DNA of 23,050 nt from a virus. The DNA lies in IMG/VR virus record IMGVR_UViG_3300010885_019193, positions 1 through 23,050 of that record; one strand, given 5' to 3'. The number at the start of each line of letters is the position of its first letter. Position 1 is the first letter of the stretch. A model generated the notes under the pieces. It did no database searches. It was not told the DNA's origin and was given only the letters and a program-made list of their open reading frames with translations. Below, piece after piece: positions 8,389 to 19,696 of the stretch. A program made the translations under genes and the position numbers.

Positions 8389-11300
8389 TATGGTCTTTGT
8401 GTCCTAATTCTCTGTGAGTCAACTTGTCTAATTTGTGTCATAACGACTCTTGCAATATCTTGTGGATTTGCATCAGATTTAACGTTAACGCTTAGATTAT
8501 AATTATACACCTTCTGGCCACTGTAGGATCCATCATTTATAGACTTCATTTTATTAATACCATATGAGTCAACTGCATATTTGCTCATTATAAATTCACC
8601 AGGAGTTAACATTGCTGGAACTGTATCTGTTCCCTTTGCATACCCTCCTACAGCAAAATATTTAGGCATAACCATTCCACCCATATTCATTCTTTGTGGA
8701 GGTGCTGGTTCTGCTCTAGTAGTTTTTACTATTCCACCAGAAGCAAACACTGGTCGTGCTGGAGGTTTTGGCGTTGGCTTTGGCGTTGGAGTTGGTGAAG
8801 GCGTTGGAGTTGGTGAAGGCGTTGGAGTTGGTGAAGGCGTTGGAGTTGGTGAAGGCGTTGGTGAAGGCGTTGGGTTGCCTCGGTCTGGATTATTTGCACC
8901 TTCATCTGGATTATGGACTGCTCCATTACCTGTATCGCCAGGAGGTGGTGTTGGTGTGGGAGTTGGTGTTGGTGTGGGAGTTGGTGTTGGTGTGGGAGTT
9001 GGTGTTGGTGTGGGAGTTGGTGTTGGTGTAGATGAAACTGTTGCTAAATATTCATCATAAGACATTTGGTCTTCTGGTGGAAGAGTTGCTTGTAATTTAT
9101 TCCACGCTGCTCTAGACATTGGCTTTTGTTTATTTAAGAAGTTATCAAGTGCTGCACTAGCATTATTCCATCCATCTTTTGCATTTTCTGCAGGATCGGT
9201 TAAACTCTTATTAAATGTTAGTTCCTGACCAATTAATTCAGCATAAGCAATTACTTGATCTTCTGTAAGTCCCCATTCTGTTGCAAGATCTGTAATTTCT
9301 TTAGTAGATAGGTCATCATCTAAAGTTGCAGCAACAAATGCAGCATACTTCGCTACTTCGTCATATGGCACTCCCCATTTTTTTGCAAGTGCTTCAATTT
9401 GTACAGGAGATAATTCCGTACCTAAAGTAGTAGTAACAAATGAAGCATATTTCAGAACTTCACTTTCTGTAAGATTCCATGTTGCTCCAAGTTTTGTAAT
9501 CTCTGCACTAGATAGACCTTTACTTAAAATAGCAGTAACAAATGCAGCATACTGCTCTGCCTCAGTTTTTGGTACTCCCCAGGCTTCTCCAAGTTTTGCA
9601 ATCTGTACAGGAGATAATTCCGTACCTAAAGTAGTAGTAACAAATGAAGCATATTTCAGAACTTCACTTTCTGTAAGATTCCATGTTGCTCCAAGTTTTG
9701 TAATCTCTGCACTAGATAGACCTTGACTTAAAATAGCAGTAACAAATGCAGCATACTTCGCTGCCTCAGTTTTTGGTACTCCCCATGCTATTCCAAGGTT
9801 TGTAATCTGTTGATCAGATAAAGTTCTTCTATTAAGTTCTAAATAACCCTCAAGATATTGTCTTGCTTGGCTTTGGCTTATTCCCCAGGCTGTGGCAAGT
9901 GCTACAACGTCTGCATCTGATATGGCTCCATCTTTAATTGCCTTTTGAATAAGCGCATATGAGGCTGCTCCTACTGTTGCAAAATCTATTGATAGTTTAA
10001 GAAGATCAAACTGTGTAATAATTTCTGCTCCAAAGATTGCAGCCTTTACTAATAAATCTTGAAAAGCAATAGTTGCAACTTCTGATTCTGCAATTTTTCC
10101 TGAAACCTCTGCCCATTGAACCTTTAGATCATTAAGATATTGCAAATCTCTTGCTTGATTATCTTGAATTACTTTTAGTTTTCCTTGCTCTATCACAAGA
10201 AGTGCTTGTGCAGAAGATAACTCTTTATTTGCAGTAAAAAGATTTAATTCTTTAGCATCACCAATACCATTTGTAATATTATAAATTCTATCTTCAAGAT
10301 CACGGATATCTAGTAGTATTGCTTTTCTTGCATCTTCAAGAGGTTTAATGTTATATTTTTTAATTGTAGCAATTTTTGCTTCAATTGCTTCTCTACCCTC
10401 TTCAAGGTCATAGATGTCTTGAGTTATTTGAAATTGGGCTTCTTCAATTTGTAATCTGGTTAGACCATTAGCATTTCTTAAGTTTCCAAGTTCTTGTTCT
10501 TTTGCTATGTTTAGGGAGTCTCCAGTACCAGATGCTGCCCCCTCTGATGCTGTAGATCGTATGTCTTGTGACATTTGTGCTGCTGCAGAAATATCTCCTT
10601 GTGATAGAGCATCTGCAAGAGATATTTTTTGTTTTTCTTGTGCAATTAAGTTTTGATTTAATTCAGAGATTTTACTTAATGCATCTTGTTGTACATCATA
10701 CTTTTTATTAATTGCCTCTGCTGCATGATCAATTATACTTAAATCATTTGATAGGTCAGAAGCCTTTTCTTGTGCGGCAGCAATTGGAATATCAAATGTT
10801 TCAGAAATTTGATCTTCATATTCTTTAATTTGATCTTCAAAGATTCTTAATTGTCTTGTTACATCTGTTTCAATTTTTACTTGTTTTTCATCTATTTTTG
10901 ATTGAATTTCATCAATTGTATGCTGAATATCCGAAACATTCTTTTGTGCTGCTTCAACTACTTTTTGTTTAGCCTCAATTTCTCTTTCTGCAGAAAGTAT
11001 TGATCTAGCATATTTTCCTTCTACTGCTGTTTGTGCTTTTGAGAAGAAGTTGTTCATTTCACTTTCTACCTCAGATAATTTATCTTTAAAATGTTGTAGT
11101 GGATCTTGTACTTTTCCTAAATTTTCTTGAGCCTTTTTTAACTCTCTAAATTTTGCAATTAAAGCATCTAGTTCTGGTCCTGGGGCTGCAGCACTTAATG
11201 ATAAAGCAAAGTTTGCATCTGATAACATTTCAATTGCTTCTTTAGCAGTTACTCCTGCTGAAGTTAATTCTTTAAATTTGGATTTTTGTTTTTCAATACC

Positions 11301-17859: not shown

Positions 17860-18192
17860 TTAATTATTTGCAAGTACTGTGTTTAGCAGTGCATTAGCAT
17901 CGCTAAGTTTTACTCCAGATGCCGCTTCAATAATGCTGTAGACTGTTGGTAGATCTAAAACATCTTCCAACTTTGCTATATCCCCAGCCAATTCTGGCTT
18001 GTATTGCTCCATTGCAATTTGTACACATTCAACGAGCAAAACCATAGACTTTTCGTTATCTTCTGCTACTAAGGCTACCTGCTCAAATTTCTTCATAAAT
18101 GGACGAAGCAAGGAAATCTTTAAAGGACGTACCTTTATCTTTGTTCCATCCATAAGTGTCAGTTCTGCCCCATCATAAACTGTTGTTGCCAT
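17860..18192 (-). CDS. Tail assembly chaperone, short form (G-only paralog)
   Basis: This gene encodes 110 residues, starting MATTVYDGAELTLMDGTKIK. Over its whole length it is a paralog of the N-terminal 98 residues of the gene just upstream: shared PLKI, LR-FM--FE-V, LVECV-I-M-QY-PE, D-PT-Y-I---AG-K. It lacks the T-like extension and ends in ASGVKLSDANALLNTVLANN. Unlike its partner it has a perfect SD (AGGAGG, eight bases upstream) and its own extended -10 box, so it may be made in excess. That matches the surplus of short G protein over GT in well-studied siphophages such as lambda. The tape measure gene starts 19 nt downstream. It probably acts as a chaperone for the tape measure protein during tail assembly and is absent from the virion. 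The paralogy is clear; the function is inferred from family and place. Confidence 0.75.
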   Translation of the reverse strand: MATTVYDGAELTLMDGTKIKVRPLKISLLRPFMKKFEQVALVAEDNEKSMVLLVECVQIAMEQYKPELAGDIAKLEDVLDLPTVYSIIEAASGVKLSDANALLNTVLANN

Positions 18193-18219
18193 TGTATTTC
18201 CTCCTGTTAAGTTATGTCA

Positions 18220-18228
18220 ATTATAGCA
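18220..18228 (-). promoter_or_regulatory. Extended -10 element TGCTATAAT upstream of the short chaperone
   Basis: TGCTATAAT on the minus strand lies in the 69-nt gap between the two chaperone genes, 27 nt before the ATG at 18192. The -35 region is only AT-rich (CTTAAA). A start here would leave a leader of about 20 nt containing AGGAGG. Confidence 0.45.
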
Positions 18229-18261
18229 CAAATAGGCTATTTTTTAAGTTATTAAACATTT

Positions 18262-18972
18262 TTATTTCATTACGCTTGGATCTCTTTCATCGCCATAATC
18301 CAACCCCATATTTATACCAAACCCCGCCTTTTGTGCATTAACTCCTTGTAGAGCCAAAACGTCATTGCTATCTGTTGCTTTGCCACCGCTAAAGACTCTT
18401 GCTTTCATGTCTTCCCATTCTTTCTGTCCTTTATTTTGATTTTTATCCCCGTCTAAATCCACACCTTGAATTGCTGCAAGAAACTTTTTTTCTGAATAAT
18501 CTAACTCTCTAAGTACTTCAAGAGTTACCATCAGTTCTGGCATTGATAGATATGTTTCTAGTTCTTGATAATCTTTCCAGATACCCAGCAAAAAAACCTC
18601 TGCTTCAAGTTTTGCTAAATCTAGTGTCTCCCAGGTTTCTCCACTTTTTTCTGCTTGATCTTTTACTGGCTCTTCAGATTTTTGATTAATTTTAATTCCA
18701 GCAGATGAATCTAATATTTTATAAATTGTTGGCATGTCAAAATTATCTTCTATATCTTTAGCGGTAGATGATATTTCTGGACAGTACTGTTTCATACATA
18801 TACGAACACACTCTACTAAGACAGCGATAGATTCATCATCACTTTTTGCTTCTTTTACATTTTCAAATACCTCCATAAATTCACGAAGATATCTTATCTT
18901 TAATGGTATGATTTCTAATTCTTTACCATTAAATAAAAATATTGTTTGATTTTTGTATACCCTGGTTGCCAT
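18262..18972 (-). CDS. Tail assembly chaperone, long form (G domain fused in frame to a T-like domain)
   Basis: This gene encodes 236 residues from the ATG at 18972. Longer versions with TTG or GTG starts back to 19011 would read through the terminator. The ATG is preferred because the short paralog downstream starts with the same MAT-VY motif. Residues 1-98 match that paralog: PLKI, LR-FM-FE, LVECV-I-M-QY-PE and ED-D-PT-Y-I--AG-K. A charged linker follows. Then comes a helical T-like part (ETWETLDLAKLEAEVFLLGI, LRELDYSEKKFLAAIQGVDL) with a Gly-rich end (GFGINMGLDYGDERD) typical of the GT chaperones coded before tape measure genes. In most siphophages the T part is reached by a -1 frameshift; here it is in the same frame. 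An A6 tract at 18645-18650 sits at the junction but is not in the phase of a canonical slippery heptamer. It likely coats the tape measure protein and recruits tube subunits. Confidence 0.75.
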   Translation of the reverse strand: MATRVYKNQTIFLFNGKELEIIPLKIRYLREFMEVFENVKEAKSDDESIAVLVECVRICMKQYCPEISSTAKDIEDNFDMPTIYKILDSSAGIKINQKSEEPVKDQAEKSGETWETLDLAKLEAEVFLLGIWKDYQELETYLSMPELMVTLEVLRELDYSEKKFLAAIQGVDLDGDKNQNKGQKEWEDMKARVFSGGKATDSNDVLALQGVNAQKAGFGINMGLDYGDERDPSVMK

Positions 18973-18980
18973 TATAATCA

Positions 18981-18989
18981 ATTCTACCA
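18981..18989 (-). promoter_or_regulatory. Extended -10 element TGGTAGAAT placed for a leaderless transcript
   Basis: TGGTAGAAT on the minus strand lies immediately after the terminator U run. Only eight bases (TGATTATA) separate it from the ATG at 18972. A start 7-9 nt downstream of the -10 would put the 5' end at or within two bases of the A of the ATG. No SD lies in a usable position before that ATG. Confidence 0.5.
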
Positions 18990-18990
18990 C

Positions 18991-19024
18991 AAACAAAAAA
19001 CCCACCTCCAATTAAGGAAGTGGG
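18991..19024 (-). terminator. Intrinsic terminator after the tail tube gene
   Basis: The minus strand reads CCCACTTCC, loop TTAATT, GGAGGTGGG, then TTTTTTG. The stem is nine pairs with one G-U wobble, GC-rich, followed directly by six U. This is the clearest terminator in the window. It separates the tail tube gene from the chaperone genes, whose first promoter-like box lies only a few bases further on. Confidence 0.85.
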
Positions 19025-19027
19025 CTA

Positions 19028-19060: not shown

Positions 19061-19696
19061 TTATGATGTAACTGTGTGGGTACGGTCAATGATCTTGCCG
19101 TATGATCCAGATGTATCTTCTGGTAGAAGACGGAATGATACTTCAAACATTGAAGCCTCATCACGCTTTGCTGAAACTGTTACGTTTTCAATTGATAGAG
19201 CACGGTATCCAACGTATATGCGCTCTACTGCAGCAGAATCATCACAGTCGCCTGTTCCTGGTCCTATTGCAACAATACCACGCTCAACTGGACATTCTCC
19301 GATGTCTCCAGCATTAAATGATAAAGTTCTTCCAGCAGATGAAGCCTTTGTTCCACTTAGATCATTGTTGTTTCCTGCTAGGGCCAATAGAAGGTTTTCT
19401 AAAGTAGCCTCAGCAAATGCAGTTGCAATGCTAACTTGCATTCCCTGCTTATAAAGTTTTGCAACGTCAAGAATCTGGTCTACCTGGACTTCACCGAAGT
19501 CTGGTTGGAACTGCATTTCAAGTCCGTTTGTTGTGTAACCAACATTGTCATATCCTGCATCAGCAGAGAGAGTGTCTCTGTATGATTCTGATCCTGAAAA
19601 TGCTGGGGACATTGTTGGTACTAAAGTTGTGTCTGCCATATAAAATGCTGCAGCACCAACGATAATGTTTGTTGATGTTCCACGGGTATAAGCCAT
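19061..19696 (-). CDS. Major tail (tube) protein
   Basis: This gene encodes 211 residues of the subunit expected to polymerise into the tail tube. Evidence: it sits between the tail terminator and the tail chaperone genes upstream of the tape measure; its size is right; and it is built of Gly/Ser/Thr-rich strands with the typical small N-terminus MAYTRGTSTNIIVGAAAFYM. Further strands include NGLEMQFQPDFGEVQVDQI, ERGIVAIGPG, IYVGYRALSIENVTVSAKRD and ASMFEVSFRLLPED. A strong SD (AAAGAGGTGA) lies five bases before the ATG. Codon use is visibly more GC-ending than in the surrounding genes (GAC, TCC, CGT, GGC), which fits very high expression. Its own extended -10 lies upstream, and a classical intrinsic terminator preceded by a second hairpin follows the stop, so it may be made largely as a monocistronic message. 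Confidence 0.8.
   Translation of the reverse strand: MAYTRGTSTNIIVGAAAFYMADTTLVPTMSPAFSGSESYRDTLSADAGYDNVGYTTNGLEMQFQPDFGEVQVDQILDVAKLYKQGMQVSIATAFAEATLENLLLALAGNNNDLSGTKASSAGRTLSFNAGDIGECPVERGIVAIGPGTGDCDDSAAVERIYVGYRALSIENVTVSAKRDEASMFEVSFRLLPEDTSGSYGKIIDRTHTVTS

Follow-up and report, generated by a model that had tools for sequence, protein, structure and literature searches.

A fused and a separate short tail assembly chaperone gene, predicted to replace a frameshifting pair in uncultured, mostly aquatic viruses

The chaperone locus and its genes

The window, i.e., the whole stretch of 23,050 nucleotides that was analysed (IMG/VR record IMGVR_UViG_3300010885_019193), contains a tail module on the minus strand. 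Across its full length, it is 99.9% identical to part of IMGVR_UViG_3300010160_000003, an IMG/VR contig of 100,390 bases. The original prediction had described two tail chaperone paralogs in this module, and both reading frames are present: a long one of 236 amino acids, here called GT, and a short one of 110 amino acids, called G. They are placed between the major tail protein (MTP) gene and the tape measure gene, as expected of G/GT-type chaperones. For chaperones of this type, the expectation is further that G binds to the tape measure and T to the tail tube protein, and that both are absent from the virion. The features of the locus are listed below in the order of transcription.

19061-19696, minus strand: MTP gene, upstream of GT; matches phrog_2175 and phrog_885, and its position is matched in Stanwilliamsviridae
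18990-19026, minus strand: predicted intrinsic terminator between the MTP gene and the GT promoter; an 11-pair stem followed by a T-run, folding z-score -5.1
18981-18989, minus strand: extended -10 box TGGTAGAAT, 8 nt upstream of the ATG of GT; predicted to serve as promoter for a leaderless mRNA of this gene
18972-18262, minus strand: fused tail assembly chaperone GT, 236 aa from ATG
18688-18972, minus strand: G-like domain of GT, about residues 1-95
18637-18690, minus strand: fusion joint (about KINQKSEEPVKDQAEKSGE), which aligns with the -1 slip position of relatives, between GVKLNDP and KSSSDGSGSTWEELDLAK
Residues 96-112 of GT, minus strand: linker
18265-18636, minus strand: T-like domain of GT, about residues 113-236
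18220-18228, minus strand: extended -10 box TGCTATAAT of the predicted G promoter, 27 nt upstream of the G ATG
18200-18205, minus strand: Shine-Dalgarno (SD) sequence AGGAGG of G, 7 nt before the ATG
18192-17860, minus strand: separate short chaperone G, paralog of the N-terminal part of GT, 110 aa
8388-17840, minus strand: tape measure gene, directly downstream of G; matches phrog_10030 (E 2.6e-98) and PF10145 (E 1.1e-23)

The first 98 residues of the short G protein match the long gene at 41% identity (tblastn within the window, E 9.3e-24), and their paralogy is thus not due to chance. All motifs that had been named as common to the two proteins (MATxVY, PLKI, LRxFM, LVECVxIxMxQYxPE and DxPTxYxI) were found again. 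Both proteins match the family phrog_10504 at about 1e-20 (E 8.7e-21 for short G; residues 1-101 in the case of GT), and the T part of GT also matches phrog_10474 (E 2e-14, residues 131-194). In Streptomyces phages, the separate frames of G and T are covered by these two families as well. Moreover, the G and T parts are homologous to the “tail assembly chaperone” pairs of Stanwilliamsviridae, with E-values down to 3e-32, an annotation that is based on position and frameshift as far as could be seen.

Pfam gave no family above the cut-off for GT or short G of the window, and no significant match was obtained in sequence and fold searches of the PDB. In BFVD, a predicted tail assembly chaperone was matched modestly, at E 7.9e-5, and the GT protein of N15 at 0.07. 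The predicted structures used have a pLDDT of 71 for GT and 61 for short G. The position and the homology suggest a chaperone function for both proteins, to which the BFVD match adds slightly. Median dN/dS values are 0.16 for short G, 0.23 for the G part of GT and 0.14 for its T part; judged by these ratios, both genes are under purifying selection.

The neighbouring tape measure gene contains a tandem repeat of 204 bases (window positions 9320-9810, 2.4 copies with sub-units of 102 bases), and low-complexity 18-base repeats at 8768-9043, which encode proline-threonine and proline-serine stretches. In its protein of 3150 amino acids, a motif resembling a kinase-like catalytic loop was noticed by eye, and the Pfam search was empty at this place.

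Two layouts among relatives and the fusion joint

Both proteins were searched by tblastn against 50,697 phage records, in which matches were found only in Streptomyces and Rhodococcus phages. This search identified 127 Streptomyces phages in which one G is accompanied by a T in another frame (those inspected are Stanwilliamsviridae), and no cultured phage with the GT and G layout among these records. Several hundred further loci were retrieved in IMG/VR scans, and scans of genome contigs showed no prophage relative. The census was then composed of IMG/VR loci and cultured relatives, with identical loci removed. The two-gene layout of the window recurs in 159 distinct loci, each having GT in one open frame, followed by the separate G. 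The classic layout, G then T, is present in 132 distinct loci, from Stanwilliamsviridae and two groups of uncultured viruses.

T is in the -1 frame relative to G in 132/132 frameshift loci, and the overlap of the two contains a slippery heptamer. This heptamer is CCCAAAC in 53 loci, GGGAAAC in 41, CCCAAAT in 14, the imperfect CCCGGAA in 13, AAATTTG in eight, GGGAAAA in two and GGGAAAT in one. The long form is annotated as a joined CDS in the phages TunaTartare, Kenrey and Yaboi, and in the more distant Rhodococcus phage Dorin. Among the intact census loci covering the place, a fused GT never occurs without the separate G, nor a short G without the fused GT, and no frameshift pair is accompanied by an additional G. 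Since neither mixed type occurs in the census, the two layouts exclude each other. GT stands alone in L006, L015 and L188 only because the contig ends, and L087, which entered the first G tree as a frameshift G, was dropped as a short G on a cut contig.

Two single odd loci have a broken gene, perhaps by assembly error: a frame change interrupts GT in L144 (5214-5968) and short G in L465 (4413-4748). The spacing between GT and G is 172 bases in L066, compared with 26-70 in most relatives.

WhiB proteins are an actinobacterial regulator family. The presence of WhiB genes in 11 of the 12 large contigs argues for actinobacterial hosts, and the data point to the viruses with GT and G as a widespread, uncultured and mostly aquatic group infecting such hosts.

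The point at which the G and T parts are joined was compared with the place where the frameshifting relatives slip. The G frame of Streptomyces phage Circinus reads GVKLNDPNLLAMAAEALGKN up to its stop; upon a -1 shift at its C CCA AAT heptamer, the product would run on as KSSSDGSGSTWEELDLAKLEAEVF. The fused GT reads GIKINQKSEEPVKDQAEKSGETWETLDLAKLEAEVF across its joint. As far as the aligned sequences tell, the frame change in GT is fixed at the very position where the relatives slip. The short G protein ends in GVKLSDANALLNTVLANN, similar to the tail of G in the frameshifting relatives, with GCA or GCT replacing the slippery CCA in the aligned rows shown. A phased heptamer is absent between codon 80 and the stop in 132 of the 159 short G genes.

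The original prediction had named an efficient frameshift in the long gene, giving a short G product, as evidence against its proposal. At the GT joint, no conserved phased slippery heptamer was found in the 159 loci. Residual slippage elsewhere in GT was considered and rejected, as phased heptamers within codons 80-130 are present in only 44/159 loci, 25 of these at codon 126, in the conserved VFLL motif. The GT of the window is one with a heptamer at this codon (a phased T TTT TTG in the T part), which, given these counts, is not a conserved signal; a slip there would result in a broken T and not in a G.

Start signals and the terminator

The start signals are as described in the original prediction, GT having a -10 box without SD and G having AGGAGG together with its own -10 box, and this contrast is conserved. 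In 152/157 loci, the ATG of GT follows 6-9 nt after the end of an extended -10 box (TGNTANNNT), compared with 1.3% of shuffled leaders having one at 6-10 nt. An SD of at least 5 nt is found in 0/157 GT leaders, and the start codon is ATG in 157/157. Apparent SDs, seen when a long anti-SD string was used, were mostly the -10 box itself (TAGAA) and were removed by a stricter test. A -10 box close to the start, the missing SD and the invariable ATG indicate that the GT mRNA would be leaderless.

This combination is shared with the leaderless genes of Actinobacteria, in which they are common and are recognized by a TANNNT box lying about 12 nt upstream of the start (Zheng et al. 2011, PMC3160421). 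In Mycobacterium smegmatis, leaderless mRNAs starting with ATG and leadered mRNAs are translated with about equal efficiency, and CTG and TTG are poor leaderless starts, with which the strict ATG of GT is in agreement (PMC4633059). Leaderless genes are known mainly from bacteria, although leaderless phage promoters have been predicted in cluster O mycobacteriophages (PMC4351075). In the literature consulted, no use of leaderless starts to split chaperone forms was found.

The short G gene is preceded by an SD of at least 4 nt in 159/159 loci, and of at least 5 nt in 145. Its -10 box, with the consensus TATGcTATAAT (120 distinct leaders), is located 18-42 nt before the start, mostly 23-30, and overlaps the GT stop codon in some relatives. 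The G gene of the frameshift loci has an SD in 131/132 cases and a -10 box at a similar distance, and it starts with TTG or GTG in 69/132. Because the frameshift G is also led by an SD with a similarly placed -10 box, the short G keeps the old type of leader, and the type found before GT is new.

The terminator at 18990-19026, predicted to be strong, had not been mentioned in the original prediction. A terminator-like hairpin precedes GT in 156/157 loci and the frameshift G in 97/132, whereas only 13/159 short G leaders contain one, in all cases short; the loci are related, and these counts do not represent independent events. The terminator between MTP and GT may limit the amount of tail protein transcript that reaches the chaperone genes.

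Apart from the chaperone locus, 12 of the 111 ORFs of at least 80 aa in IMGVR_UViG_3300010160_000003 (L486-L490) carry an extended -10 box at 6-9 nt from the start codon, which is ATG in all of them; ten of these 12 lack an SD at any candidate start. Leaderless starts thus seem to be in regular use in this phage.

Origin and expression of the two chaperone forms

In lambda and most long-tailed phages, both chaperone forms are produced from one gene by -1 slippage. Few recoding events of long-tailed phages are as well conserved as the G:GT frameshift, and in lambda, the ratio of the two products is crucial for tail assembly. The proposal that a duplication stands in for this frameshift pair is borne out by the -1 position of T in all 132 frameshifting relatives, the joint at their slip position and the loss of the slippery site in short G. 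It is most likely that frameshifting was replaced by duplication.

Phylogenetic trees were used to place this event. In the T-domain tree, rooted with two Rhodococcus phages, frameshift lineages branch first and outside, and the fused forms are found in one clade (98/91) together with some GGGAAAC frameshift members, with L198 at the clade base. In the tree of G domains, which had been suggested as a check, the short G groups with the G of the GGGAAAC frameshift lineages and the fused G of GT is separate; a single clade of fused G and short G was not rejected (AU p 0.40). Trees of MTP, and of MTP and T combined, fully support the aquatic clade. The placement of its frameshift members is not resolved there, the GGGAAAC-type lineages (e.g., L191, L217 and L198) lying inside the clade and not resolved as basal. 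A single origin of the GT and G layout was not rejected either (p 0.22 with MTP; 0.31 with MTP and T). The simplest account of these sequences would be one duplication in a frameshifting ancestor, with reversal, loss or more than one origin possible in some lineages.

Starting from the paralogy, the layout, the joint and the conserved signals, all of which can be read in the sequences, we consider it highly probable that GT and G are the long and short forms of a chaperone, derived by duplication of an ancestral frameshift gene and now expressed from separate starts. The virus is probably an actinobacteriophage, and its genome would measure about 100 kb. Its ancestor would have produced both forms from one gene via -1 ribosomal frameshifting, as the relatives still appear to do, before this chaperone gene was presumably duplicated. 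In the copy next to MTP, the frame change would have become fixed at the old slip position, leaving GT as the only product. In the copy adjoining the tape measure gene, the T part and the slippery site would have disappeared, so that only G is made, and the kind of promoter and SD leader seen in the relatives would have been kept. The terminator is predicted to end the MTP transcript before GT, and GT, with a promoter to itself, would be transcribed into a leaderless mRNA that probably extends through G into the tape measure gene. Further G would come from another promoter, which is followed by a strong SD. As no strong terminator separates GT and G, G is probably also part of the GT transcript; with its own promoter and strong SD in addition, G should therefore exceed GT without slippage.

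The original prediction ascribed the G:GT ratio to the strength of translation initiation. Such control may exist, but promoter dosage is at least as likely, and the ratio may well depend on both promoter dosage and initiation, leaderless in the case of GT. The two-gene origin would be the same if the ratio were set by transcript dosage, through two promoters and one terminator, with leaderless initiation not being limiting, a reading to which we give an even chance. It agrees with the fact that GT and G are each preceded by a conserved extended -10 box of their own, and with the distribution of hairpins (156/157 upstream of GT; few and short, 13/159, upstream of G). A leaderless start need not be weak in these hosts, given that, in M. 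smegmatis, leaderless reporters reach the efficiency of leadered ones (PMC4633059), and the transcript dosage may set the ratio since G has its own promoter and probably a place on the GT transcript. On the other hand, the strict SD contrast (at least 4 nt in 159/159 G leaders; at least 5 nt in 0/157 GT leaders) suggests that the start signals matter too.

The trees also bear on the direction of change. If GT and G were ancestral in the aquatic clade, its GGGAAAC frameshift lineages would represent a later return to one gene, with which the grouping of their single G with the short G and their position, for which the MTP and MTP with T trees give no resolved basal placement, would be compatible. 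This is unlikely, as all outgroups use the frameshift layout, the T tree has L198 at the base of the clade, and a return would require new slippery sites and frame breaks. It is quite unlikely, too, that the short paralog has taken a new role, e.g., on an additional part of the tape measure, which is unusually long, with GT alone acting as the classic chaperone, possibly via residual slippage. The separate groups formed by short G and the G parts of GT in the G tree, and the somewhat faster evolution of the fused G part (dN/dS 0.23 vs. 0.16), could be explained in this way, but the short G and the fused GT are never found apart in intact loci, of the two copies, it is the short G that lies nearer to the single G found in the GGGAAAC frameshift lineages, and there is no conserved slippery site near the GT joint. 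We think it rather likely that the clade split the two products of the frameshift between the copies, by fixing the frame in one and losing the slippery site in the other, with the ratio set by separate promoters and by the difference between a leaderless GT and an SD-led G.

Stanwilliamsviridae (Streptomyces phages such as Circinus, Coruscant, TunaTartare and Yaboi) share with the GT and G viruses the homologous G and T parts, the order of MTP, chaperone and tape measure genes, and actinobacterial hosts. They differ by their single G gene with a -1 T and a slippery site, the absence of a second G, and an SD-led start that is often TTG or GTG. In lambda and its relatives, a short and a long form are likewise encoded at one locus before the tape measure gene, with the same proposed task in tail assembly. 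The lambda gpG and gpGT are, however, produced at about 30:1 via -1 slippage on one mRNA (PMC5009743), whereas two genes with unlike start signals are found here. T4-like phages, in so far as they are described in PMC10885494 (Vladimirov, Gautam and Davidson 2022), have a short chaperone gene and a separate fused long gene, with no frameshifting. This likeness is one of layout only, the T4-like phages being myophages and not actinophages; going by that description, the two-gene strategy is not new in kind. New, as far as the literature consulted shows, are the two-gene layout in actinophages, a close frameshifting outgroup in which the joint can be recognized, and the conserved split into a leaderless and an SD-led start.

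A large natural clade appears to do without the G:GT frameshift, and its near frameshifting relatives reveal the point of fixation. This makes it testable what the frameshift serves, i.e., the ratio only, or also the synthesis of the two forms from a single mRNA and at a single place. The two parts of one presumed complex have conserved, unlike start signals. For annotators, the case is a warning that a chaperone gene lacking a slippery site is not necessarily an annotation error. Among the frameshifting relatives, the 13 loci with the imperfect slip site C CCG GAA (e.g., L157, L158, L162 and L168-L174) have relatives with C CCA AAT or C CCA AAC, and these three types offer a natural series for tests of slip efficiency.
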